DNA of 29,203 nt from Promethearchaeota archaeon (GTDB lineage Archaea > Asgardarchaeota > Lokiarchaeia > Sigynarchaeales > SOKP01). The notes under the pieces were generated by a model. The model saw only the letters and a list, made by a program, of their open reading frames with translations, was not told the DNA's origin and searched no databases. The stretch is taken from positions 1 to 29,203 of the forward strand of contig JAEOTJ010000307.1 in NCBI GenBank assembly GCA_016839905.1, written 5' to 3'. Every line of letters begins with the position of its first letter. Position 1 is the stretch's first letter. This document shows positions 9,785 through 28,914 of the stretch, piece by piece. The position numbers and the translations under genes are program-made.

Positions 9785-10405
9785 TCATTTCTTCTCCTTT
9801 TCTACTGTAAATTCAACACGGTCCCACTCTTTTAATGCTTCATTAAAATCTTCTAAAGAGATTTGTCTGGTTATTTTGATTCTATTCTCAGTTTCTAGTT
9901 TTTTAATTTTAAACATTAATTTTTTATTTTTACGATAAAATCTTTCAGCCTTGGGATATTCATCTTTAAATATGTTTTTAAGCTTATCTAAATCAATGTT
10001 TTTCAATTCTTCGTAATTCTTAATTACATAATTGCAAAGAGGGTCAATACTTATTTGAAAGTTAAATGCATCAAGCTGCTTTAAAGCTAATGGATAAGCT
10101 TGACATGCAAATGGCTTAACATTATGAACTGTACATCCTTTATTTTTATAATAAAAAGGACAACCCTTAGATTCATTATCTAAACGAATTCTATAAGTAA
10201 CGACGATTATTTTTTTATTTTTTATGTCAGGAAATACTAAATCTTCTATTATTTTAAATGGAATGCCTCTATCTTTTGCAATTTCTATCAAGATATCTGC
10301 TTCATCTGGATATAAAGGAATTCTCTTTTTATAACCAAATTCCGTTCCTTTAACCTCATGGCAACAAGTTCCACATTTTTGGCAAATGTAATTTAATTCA
10401 CTCAA
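9785..10405 (-). CDS. YkgJ-family CxxCxxCC protein
   Basis: A 206-residue protein of the zinc- or iron-chelating YkgJ/UPF0153 family. The N-terminus has C8-x2-C11-x2-C14-C15, and the second half of the site is GCPF followed by GCTVHNVKPFACQAYPL. A basic helical C-terminus (~145-206) follows. The family role is unsettled; metal or Fe-S cluster binding is likely. The start is TTG at 10405, the only candidate close to the conserved first Cys. It is coupled (4-bp gap) to the ThiI-like sulfurtransferase gene, which suggests the metal centre could serve tRNA thiolation. That functional link is inference. Confidence 0.88.
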   Translation of the reverse strand: MSELNYICQKCGTCCHEVKGTEFGYKKRIPLYPDEADILIEIAKDRGIPFKIIEDLVFPDIKNKKIIVVTYRIRLDNESKGCPFYYKNKGCTVHNVKPFACQAYPLALKQLDAFNFQISIDPLCNYVIKNYEELKNIDLDKLKNIFKDEYPKAERFYRKNKKLMFKIKKLETENRIKITRQISLEDFNEALKEWDRVEFTVEKEKK

Positions 10406-11466: not shown

Positions 11467-11616
11467 TTAGCATACTTTAATTCTTTTAATGATATCTGGA
11501 CGTTTTTTATAAAGAATGCGAAAACCACAATGACTACATTTAATTCCAGGTAATGCGCTTAATTCCTTTTTACTTACTTCCTTGCCACAACTTTTTCGAG
11601 CACATATATATTTCAT
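11467..11616 (-). CDS. rpoP: RNA polymerase subunit P (Rpo12)
   Basis: A 49-residue zinc-binding subunit of archaeal RNA polymerase, homologous to eukaryotic Rpb12. The sequence contains C5 and C10 followed by ELSALPGIKC and CSHCGFRILYKKRPD, the hallmark motif of the family. The frame is open further upstream, but the extra 43 residues are an AT-rich hydrophobic translation with no family match. The ATG at 11616 gives the normal length and is chosen. It lies 135 bp downstream of TFB on the same strand. The two transcription genes may share a transcript or use separate promoters. Confidence 0.93.
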   Translation of the reverse strand: MKYICARKSCGKEVSKKELSALPGIKCSHCGFRILYKKRPDIIKRIKVC

Positions 11617-11751
11617 TATTATCACATAATATCTTTTTTCTTTAATAATGCATTTAATAGAAAAGAAATTAAATTTTTTGGTTTTATAGAAGTAATTCTT
11701 GAATAAAATAGAAATTAATATTAACAAGATTAAGATAAATAACAAGGCTAT

Positions 11752-17344: not shown

Positions 17345-17457
17345 GCAGAGATAACCAAGTCTGGTCAACGGTGATGGACTCAAGATCCATTGACATAGGT
17401 CATCGTTAAACTTTGGTCAACGACCTGAATGCGTGGGTTCAAATCCCACTCTCTGCA
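17345..17457 (+). tRNA. tRNA-Leu (CAA), probable variable-arm intron
   Basis: Acceptor GCAGAGA (17345-17351) pairs with TCTCTGC (17450-17456), followed by A73. The D stem is ACC/GGT with a TGGTCAAC-containing loop. The anticodon stem ATGGA/TCCAT encloses CTCAAGA, with anticodon CAA at 17381-17383. The T arm is GTGGG, TTCAAAT, CCCAC. This is a class II tRNA, but the 42 nt between the anticodon and T stems is far longer than the ~14-16 nt of an archaeal Leu variable arm. An intron of about 26 nt at 17403-17428 explains the excess and leaves an 87-nt tRNA. The 3' CCA is not encoded. The next minus-strand gene ends 4 bp downstream. Confidence 0.9.
17403..17428 (+). other. candidate noncanonical intron in tRNA-Leu
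   Basis: The flanks can form a bulge-helix-bulge: a 4-bp helix AGGT/ACCT, a 3-nt bulge CAT on the 5' strand before an inner stem CGTT/AACG, and a 2-3-nt bulge (GA or GAA) on the 3' strand before a short outer pairing. Cutting after the second bulge base on each side removes 26 nt and restores a variable-arm stem TGAC/GTCA with loop ATAG. The exact boundaries could move by a base or two. Confidence 0.6.
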
Positions 17458-27375: not shown

Positions 27376-27819
27376 TTAACCAATTATAAGAGTTATATTC
27401 TTATATTTATGTGGATTTTTTATTAAATTTTCAAATTCTTCAACATAATTTTCAAAAAAACTTTTTTCTTTAAATTTTTTATTAAACGGCCAAATTCCGA
27501 TTAAAATATCCCCTAGACCTTTAGTATTTCCGATTAAAAATCCTGATTTTTTTCCATCAGTTTTAAAAGTATAGAGAAGTACAAAATAATAATGAAATTT
27601 AAAATCTAAAGAATCATTTCTAATTTTTAGAACTTCTTCAATATTTTGAAAAGTTATAATATTTGGATTATTTTCACTCATTTTTTTTAATTCTAAAATT
27701 AATTTTAAAGGAACCTTTATGGGTTTTTTTAATAAAATATTTTGAAAAGTTAGGGAAGATTTATTCTTCTCACTTGTTTTACTACCTTTAAAGATTACCT
27801 TATAATTTATAGAACTCAT
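27376..27819 (-). CDS. hypothetical protein, 147 aa
   Basis: Not recognised. ATG at 27819, soluble, alpha/beta, Lys-rich. The N-terminal half has short polar strands (INYKVIFKGSKTSEK) and a helix around LKLILELKKMSE. The middle has a strong strand FHYYFVLLYTFK followed by a glycine-containing turn SGFLIGNTKGLGDILIGIWPF. The C-terminus is an amphipathic helix (FFENYVEEFENLIKN) and a final strand. No Cys pairs, P-loop or membrane spans are present. The gene lies 33 bp downstream of aIF1 on the same strand and is likely to be read from the same transcript. Codon and residue usage match the neighbours. Confidence 0.65.
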   Translation of the reverse strand: MSSINYKVIFKGSKTSEKNKSSLTFQNILLKKPIKVPLKLILELKKMSENNPNIITFQNIEEVLKIRNDSLDFKFHYYFVLLYTFKTDGKKSGFLIGNTKGLGDILIGIWPFNKKFKEKSFFENYVEEFENLIKNPHKYKNITLIIG

Positions 27820-27852: not shown

Positions 27853-28170
27853 TTATTCTACAATTGAAATATTTTCCTCAGGAAATCCCATATTAATTAA
27901 GAATTTTTTCATTTTAAATCGATGATCGCCTTGTAGCTCAACTTCATTTCCTCTTACAGTACCACCAGATGCACATATTTTTTTTGCTTTAGTTAAAATA
28001 TCTTTTAAGTTTACTTCAAAGTTTCCTTGAAATGTAAGAACAGTCACAACCCGCCCCCATTTTCGTCGATCGTTAGAAATTAGAATTTGCTGATCATCTT
28101 GACCTAAGCCATCACAGATACATAATTCTTTAGGGAAACTACATAATGGACAAATATCTTCGTCTTTAAT
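27853..28170 (-). CDS. sui1: translation initiation factor aIF1 (SUI1), non-ATG start
   Basis: Archaeal eIF1/SUI1, which sits near the P site and enforces start-codon fidelity. The C-terminal SUI1 core is clear: ICASGGTVRGNEVELQGDHR and the ending GFPEENISIVE. Upstream of the GTG at 28047 the same frame continues through RRKWGR and an N-terminal zinc knuckle ICPLCSFPKELCIC, as in archaeal aIF1. It then meets a TGA at 28180-28182 without an ATG, GTG or TTG. Full length (105 residues, normal for the family) therefore needs an unusual start such as ATT at 28168-28170. GGTTGTGA (28180-28187) lies 9 bases before it as a partial Shine-Dalgarno match. A one-base error in the AAAA at 28177-28180 would instead give a GTG start. 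Confidence 0.85.
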   Translation of the reverse strand: MKDEDICPLCSFPKELCICDGLGQDDQQILISNDRRKWGRVVTVLTFQGNFEVNLKDILTKAKKICASGGTVRGNEVELQGDHRFKMKKFLINMGFPEENISIVE

Positions 28171-28206
28171 ACTAACTTTTCACAACCGTTCTTAATAAAA
28201 AAAAAA

Positions 28207-28216: not shown

Positions 28217-28348
28217 TACTAAAAATAATAGATTAAAATCTTTTAAAAATCTTTCATCTTGAAAAATTAATAGATAAAAGATAAAAAATATTTGATTTTA
28301 GAGTAAAAAAGAATTTTCTAAAAAAATATAAACTTAAAGATTTTTATT

Positions 28349-28380: not shown

Positions 28381-28914
28381 ATGCAAAGTTCATGGATCTT
28401 TAAAGTAATTGTAGCAGGAGCAGGTGGTGTTGGTAAGACAGCAATGATAACCCGTTATTGTACGGGTAAATTTGAAGAAGGTTATAAAATGACTATAGGT
28501 GCAGGTTTTCATACGAAACAAGAAACACTTGATACAGGAGAGGCTGTCAAAATGCAATTATGGGATTTTGCTGGCGAACGGCGATTTAGAGAGTTATTAC
28601 CAGAGTATTGTAAAGGAGCTAGTGGAGGCTTTATCTGCTTCGATATAACTGATTATGAGACATTTAAAGAGATTCCAGAATGGTTAAAAATAATAAGACA
28701 AAGAGCAGGTTTTATTCCAATAATTCTTATGGGAATGAAATGGGATTTATCTGACCATGAAGTTGATTTTGATATGGCTAATGAATATGCTGAAAAAGCA
28801 AAATGCAATCAATGTGTATTTTGTTCTTCAAAGGAAAATGTGAACATTCCTGAATCATTTCAAGCGATGGCGAAATGGTTAATTTATTATGCTAATTTAC
28901 CGGAAGATAAATAA
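28381..28914 (+). CDS. Ras/Rab-like small GTPase
   Basis: A 177-residue single-domain GTPase of the Ras superfamily, a family expanded in Asgard archaea. G1 is GAGGVGKT (13-20); switch I Thr is T38 in MTIGAGF; G3 is WDFAGE (61-66), with Glu at the position of the catalytic Gln of Ras. G4 is MKWD (119-122) instead of NKxD, and G5 is SSK (149-151). No C-terminal Cys motif for prenylation is present; the C-terminus ends in LPEDK, so membrane attachment would need another route. The closest eukaryotic resemblance is Rab/Ras-like, but orthology is not claimed. Roadblock-like proteins such as the one at 13567 are typical partners. Confidence 0.93.
   Translation: MQSSWIFKVIVAGAGGVGKTAMITRYCTGKFEEGYKMTIGAGFHTKQETLDTGEAVKMQLWDFAGERRFRELLPEYCKGASGGFICFDITDYETFKEIPEWLKIIRQRAGFIPIILMGMKWDLSDHEVDFDMANEYAEKAKCNQCVFCSSKENVNIPESFQAMAKWLIYYANLPEDK

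Follow-up and report, generated by a model that had tools for sequence, protein, structure and literature searches.

How is translation started on the mRNA of a start-codon fidelity factor whose own frame opens without ATG, GTG or TTG? The question is raised by the aIF1 gene on the minus strand of a 29,203-nucleotide stretch of DNA from a Promethearchaeota archaeon (contig JAEOTJ010000307.1), analyzed here at its full length and termed the window. A preceding sequence-only reading had located an in-frame TGA at 28182-28180 and an ATT at 28170-28168, from which 105 residues would be translated (coding sequence 27853..28170), and our analysis agrees with these coordinates and codons. Overall, we assign a probability of roughly 0.65 to the reading that Lokiarchaeal aIF1 starts at AUU and that this start is coupled to homeostatic self-repression.

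The window gene encodes a complete aIF1

The minus-strand frame is open over 28179-27853, and its product is matched by Pfam SUI1 (PF01253; 59.1 bits, cut-off 25.5, E 6e-16), by NCBIfam PRK00939 (score 106.8, cut-off 98) and, near full length, by M. jannaschii aIF1 of solved structure 4mo0 (E 6e-26). Since residue 3 of 4mo0 already pairs with residue 8 of the window open frame, in which the ATT is residue 4, the N terminus of aIF1 has no missing part. The zinc knuckle (CPLCSFPKELCIC, 28114..28152) is also aligned with 4mo0 and lies near the CX2CGLPX3C motif printed for archaeal aIF1 in PMC6237735, SFP replacing GLP. At E ≤ 0.001 the only matches were of SUI1 type, with neither the N- nor the C-terminal domain of IF3 found, which argues that the gene is not infC and can be infC-like in its working at most.

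The window aIF1 shares 81-84% identity with those of ten Lokiarchaeota loci. Other genes of the window encode aIF2 beta, NMD3, a RIO kinase, a KH protein, FtsZ, TFIIB and an RPA-like protein, and these features place the window on a Lokiarchaeal chromosome. A small GTPase gene of the Ras family (28381..28914, plus strand, with an ATG start in the window) is oriented divergently to aIF1 and is its neighbor in 35 of the 39 distinct clade sequences described below; the next gene downstream (27376..27819, minus strand) encodes 147 residues from an ATG and has no Pfam match. An AT-rich, TATA-like element at 28239..28255 (minus strand), judged from the consensus, is the probable promoter. Elsewhere in the window, Rfam reports a tRNA at 17345-17457 whose 113 bases are long enough for an intron; ARAGORN finds none.

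The start region follows one layout throughout the clade

To describe conservation of this region, we collected 49 entries from the window's clade, the window included; some genomes were represented twice, leaving 39 distinct sequences, and two loci from one genome with a masked N-terminal part (L012 and L024) were excluded from all counts. All 39 share a common layout: an almost invariant AAGGTTGTGA, nine variable bases and then ATT (38 sequences) or ATC (one), with an in-frame TGA at -12. The absence of ATG, GTG and TTG between this TGA and the knuckle, claimed earlier for the window, was borne out there (first knuckle cysteine at 28152) and across the clade, where none of the 39 sequences carries a canonical start between its last upstream stop and the knuckle. 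GTGA and ATT are nine bases apart in every sequence, the spacer (28171..28179 in the window) being constant in length and variable in sequence, with 17 versions of its nine bases; a further in-frame stop lies inside it in 13 of the 39 sequences, the window not among them. GTDB genomes yielded twelve loci: ten with the window's arrangement, the masked L012, and L011, which differs in having GGGAGGTGA, then eight bases and ATT, and in carrying an in-frame GTG within the site.

Mapped onto a tree of these 39 sequences, whose total length is 4.7, AAGGTTGTGA at -19 to -10 underwent two changes in total (the window version has C replacing the second A), positions -60 to -20 underwent 2 to 14 changes each and spacer positions 2 to 5. 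The ATT changed once, to ATC, and the AAA that follows it never changed. No conserved RNA fold emerged between -60 and +60: for 36 sequences (three were omitted for N or a short leader) the consensus was empty.

These alignments make a non-AUG start of aIF1 well supported in the window's clade. The AUU start claimed by the sequence-only reading is strongly supported by the single layout of all 39 sequences, and we hold it very probable that AUU is the codon used.

Non-canonical starts recur among Asgard aIF1 genes

An aIF1 match was found in at least 200 of 227 genomes of the phylum, and DNA was read for 145 loci in addition to the window. Among these 146 sequences, 66 have no canonical start, 31 have ATG and 36 have GTG or TTG, so the trait is not needed by all. 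The 110 distinct sequences divide into 59 with none, 26 with ATG, 14 with GTG or TTG and 11 ambiguous (with the canonical codon lying within the Shine-Dalgarno site or upstream of it), and a further 36 loci into 7 with none, 5 with ATG, 22 with GTG and 2 ambiguous (L251 and L258); the "none" class was assigned mechanically, and the ATG, GTG/TTG and ambiguous classes are judgements by position. On a tree of the 110 proteins, built from few alignment columns, the "none" class required 10 changes, of which well supported branches force at least 7. Non-canonical aIF1 starts thus appear to recur in several Asgard lineages, and the comparison with Asgard relatives that the sequence-only reading had proposed favors a non-ATG start.

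On our reading, ATT, ATC, ATA or CTG replaces the canonical start in these 66 genes. For the window's clade and its sisters the likely start is ATT or ATC; in L086, L099, L102 and L120 it is ATA. In one further branch (L094, L100, L106, L114 and L119) it would be CTG, sister genes having GTG at that place of the protein; the spacing after AGGAG is 10 bases for the CTG and 11 for the GTG of the sister genes. Because ATT, ATC and ATA are common in AT-rich frames, the codon named outside the window's clade is a reading rather than a result. CTG also appears to be the start in the aIF1 of L244, L249, L256, L264 and L265, mostly where sisters have GTG. Two haloarchaeal aIF1 copies from a plasmid collection both begin with ATG, and one scan of viral contigs found no aIF1.

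The trait is specific to aIF1 among the genes compared

As a control, we compared 33 window frames with their orthologs in eleven genomes sharing much of the window's ~28-kb gene block, leaving out alignments that began after residue 40 and frames that ran off or met N; three frames had no ortholog. The aIF1 start was non-canonical in 11 of 11 orthologs vs 2 of 280 comparisons for the other genes. The two exceptions are an ortholog of window 9785-10405 in G136, which opens with an Ile codon right after a stop, and an ortholog of window 11467-11745 in G124, which may be no true gene. Among other initiation factors, aIF1A has a canonical start in all 30 loci examined (ATG in 27), and aIF2 beta has ATG in 25 of 25 recognized genes; five of its 30 loci escaped the recognition pattern and were dropped, and the ATG of L201, lying beyond 50 codons, was taken from the translation.

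A weak Shine-Dalgarno-like site precedes the ATT

The 3′ end of 16S rRNA reads GGATCACCTCC(T) in the five genomes in which 16S was found among ten searched, so the nearly invariant GGTTGTGA (28180..28187 in the window, minus strand) can pair with it as GG..GTGA. This element ends nine bases before the ATT and corresponds to the partial Shine-Dalgarno match noted previously. The predicted duplex is weak, at -7.4 kcal/mol for the window and -9.3 for L004 against -15.9 and -11.7 at two paralogs, and pairing leaves the two nearly invariant Ts of GGTTGTGA unaccounted for. In one sampled genome (308 frames, the first canonical codon taken as the start), the distance from GTGA to that codon was commonest at 6-7, with 18 of the 28 frames having such a site at that distance and 3 of 28 at 9. 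Both the weak duplex and the longer distance in aIF1 count against the preferred reading.

Some genomes carry a second aIF1 gene (L052, L058, L059, L061 and L065) whose strong site, GAGGTGA or GGAGGTGA, lies eight bases before ATT or ATA. The in-frame GTG inside this strong site is probably not the start.

Out-of-frame ATG is avoided close to the ATT

Codons 3-5 of the window gene (28156..28164) read GAC GAA GAT. At codons 3 and 4 the next base is G, so that GAT would give rise to an out-of-frame ATG, and aspartate at these two codons is encoded by GAC in 60 of 60 clade occurrences and never by GAT; as background, 145 of 1365 aspartate codons before G are GAC in 400 kb of one clade genome. GAT makes up 11 of 29 at codon 5, where the next base is A, and 29 of 39 and 23 of 34 at codons 25 and 52, where it is mostly or always G. 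Relatedness of the clade sequences means that these 60 codons are not 60 independent events; on the tree, GAC/GAT changes number zero at codons 3 and 4, five at codon 5 and seven at codon 25.

Sampling of synonymous codons by codon usage predicted 53.6 out-of-frame ATGs for the 39 genes with a first base at +1 to +16, vs none observed, and 106.8 over +1 to +50, vs 76 observed. An out-of-frame ATG is present at +17 in two of the 39 sequences and at +26 in all of them, indicating that avoidance is short and local. Outside the clade, near-start out-of-frame ATGs do occur (L060, L063, L052, L058 and L061). Together, the GAC bias and the ATG deficit near the ATT may be read as traces of selection against a competing AUG.

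Two start-stop pairs flank the ATT. Upstream, TTG-TGA (28180..28185, minus strand) lies in frame with it in 38 of the 39 sequences; downstream, an out-of-frame ATG-TAG (28139..28144, minus strand) lies 26 bases past its first base in 38 of 39 (the ATG alone in 39), and the A of this ATG was kept through five first-base changes of codon 9 on the tree. The pairs might serve as decoys or for re-initiation, or they might have arisen by chance from other constraints.

Public annotation and literature

Database entries treat this start in several ways. NCBI protein P0023, which matches locus L044, begins with Met exactly at the ATT, and four clade proteins (P0099, P0101, P0108 and P0117, each matching a locus) are annotated from the GTG of codon 41 and so lose the knuckle; others of the clade are annotated from a TTG at codon 22. 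aIF1 is thus cut short in part of the public annotation, probably because gene finders favor ATG, GTG and TTG. Several database proteins start M-W-K-K-S-I or similar, which suggests that TTG-TGA was read under a code in which TGA is Trp. Initiation at the upstream TTG with the TGA decoded as an amino acid is ruled out for the gene by the second in-frame stop in the spacer of 13 of the 39 sequences. Metagenome proteins P0002, P0007, P0009, P0010 and similar ones start Met-Trp ahead of the aIF1 frame, probably as a gene-finder artefact on short contigs.

A search of the open-licence literature found no report of a non-canonical start in an archaeal aIF1, an absence that is weak evidence. As PMC8211752 reports, an interruption was at first annotated in the aIF1 gene of S. 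solfataricus P2; re-sequencing showed the gene to be full length, and two kinds of peptide were still obtained. The start of that gene may merit a second look.

Proposed self-repression as the best explanation of the AUU start

Comparative sequence support extends to the start of the frame, the absence of a canonical start, its conservation, its specificity to aIF1 and its recurrence in Asgard lineages. How such a start would serve the cell is suggested by what the factor does: aIF1 is described as hindering the final accommodation of initiator tRNA and destabilizing erroneous complexes, those on non-AUG codons included (PMC6237735, PMC7531240, PMC8211752). In the parts of PMC6237735 and PMC8211752 that we could consult, rejection of non-AUG complexes is reported for Sulfolobus aIF1, not for Asgard aIF1. 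Because aIF1 destabilizes initiation on non-AUG codons, an aIF1 gene with an AUU start should be self-repressed. We propose that Lokiarchaeal aIF1 would be initiated at AUU (rarely AUC) through the weak Shine-Dalgarno site nine bases upstream, the codon being read by Met-tRNAi; high aIF1 would suppress initiation on its own mRNA and low aIF1 would allow it, which would close a homeostatic loop of the kind known from bacterial infC. This infC-like autoregulation is, by analogy, the best explanation that we can offer, at odds somewhat better than even.

A simpler alternative is that the AUU start is real and sets a low, constant level of aIF1 with no feedback loop, which we regard as possible though unlikely. 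Weak starts cut expression without feedback too, some Asgard aIF1 genes have ATG, and an ATT start has also been inferred for an Asgard tubulin gene (PMC13394414), so ATT starts need not mean self-control. However, it is in the one factor with a known role in judging start codons that the trait comes up repeatedly, whereas aIF1A, aIF2 beta and the block neighbors show it rarely or not at all, and bacterial infC provides a working example of the loop (PMC9410913, PMC5472188).

At the other extreme, the whole region might be a dedicated fidelity sensor, in which AUU sits between UUG-UGA (ending nine bases before it) and AUG-UAG (26 bases after it) and the choice among AUU, decoy and re-initiation reads out aIF1 activity. 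Recurrence of non-AUG starts across the Asgard phylum would make self-limitation of aIF1 old, and the poor AUG context of eukaryotic eIF1 its descendant or a parallel. We put this forward as an improbable speculation.

Somewhat less probable still is that a tiny leader frame, opening at GUG at -13 or consisting of UUG-UGA, is translated first and that ribosomes re-initiate at the AUU next to its stop. The TTG-TGA pair of 38 sequences would fit this, as would the nearly invariant TT that pairing alone does not explain and a 5-codon GTG frame whose TAA overlaps the ATT in 36 of 39. That overlap, however, follows mostly from the fixed spacing and the invariant ATTAAA; the GTG frame of the window stops at -4 to -2, and that of one sequence reaches a stop at +29. 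Moreover, neither GTG nor TTG has a good Shine-Dalgarno site upstream, and L047 has TCG in place of TTG. Leader re-initiation could also be compatible with autoregulation, so the rivals do not all exclude the explanation that we prefer.

Readings that dispense with the AUU fare considerably worse. A start further downstream, either at codon 6, which is another ATT, or at a GTG or TTG within the SUI1 domain, is what the codon 41 and codon 22 annotations would imply, but we consider it highly improbable, since conserved residues or the entire zinc knuckle would go: in the window, no canonical codon occurs in frame before the GTG at 28047, from which only 64 residues would remain, without the knuckle or the beginning of the SUI1 domain. 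The place of the first canonical codon also varies between sequences, falling at codon 22 to 94 in 37 of 39 (the other two have none within the first 100 codons), and it is codon 1 that fits the local avoidance of ATG and the -17 to -10 site. Initiation at the GTG at -13, invariant in all 39 sequences, followed by a +1 frameshift into the aIF1 frame seems remoter again, because no common slippery site was seen among the 17 spacer sequences and in-frame stops lie within the spacer in 13 of 39. Finally, the competing explanation of the sequence-only reading, an assembly or sequencing error with one A too many in the AAAA at 28180-28177 and a true start at GTG AAA GTT, was possible from the window alone but is refuted by relatives of equal GTG-to-ATT length (39 of 39), some also with AAAA and 12 of 39 with TAA directly 3′ of the TGA, which together indicate that no base is missing or extra.

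Comparison with known systems

In bacteria (IF3) and in eukaryotes (eIF1), a start-fidelity factor judges its own start site. If the proposed AUU start and self-repression of aIF1 are true, the device would exist in all three domains, including the archaeal aIF1 of the closest relatives of eukaryotes, and the AUU of aIF1 would be the same codon as in E. coli infC.

Two systems share part of the arrangement. Streptomyces sigR, whose GTC start is repressed by IF3 (PMC5472188), likewise places a non-canonical start under the control of a fidelity factor; unlike aIF1, it is a target gene rather than the factor's own gene, and it is bacterial. The Asgard tubulin atubA resembles aIF1 in an ATT start deduced from protein fold and a likely ribosome-binding site (PMC13394414), and differs in being a single gene with no tie to start fidelity.

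In its working aIF1 would resemble infC, described as having an AUU/AUC start with autorepression (PMC9410913, PMC5472188). IF3 spares AUG, GUG and UUG and discriminates against other triplets (PMC4611024), and a structural and functional resemblance of its C-terminal domain to eIF1 and aIF1 is stated in PMC9410913. Both genes would encode a start-codon fidelity factor behind an AUH start, a weak start recognized by the very process that the factor opposes. Unlike infC, aIF1 belongs to the SUI1 family, operates in archaeal initiation with aIF2 and adds to its leader the nearly invariant GGTTGTGA and the flanking start-stop pairs. A counterpart from the same protein family is eukaryotic eIF1 (SUI1), which, as cited in PMC6237735, autoregulates through an AUG in poor context, a start site that eIF1 itself would reject. 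Whereas eIF1 relies on an AUG in poor context under scanning, Asgard aIF1 would reach a comparable end with a non-AUG codon and a Shine-Dalgarno-like site.
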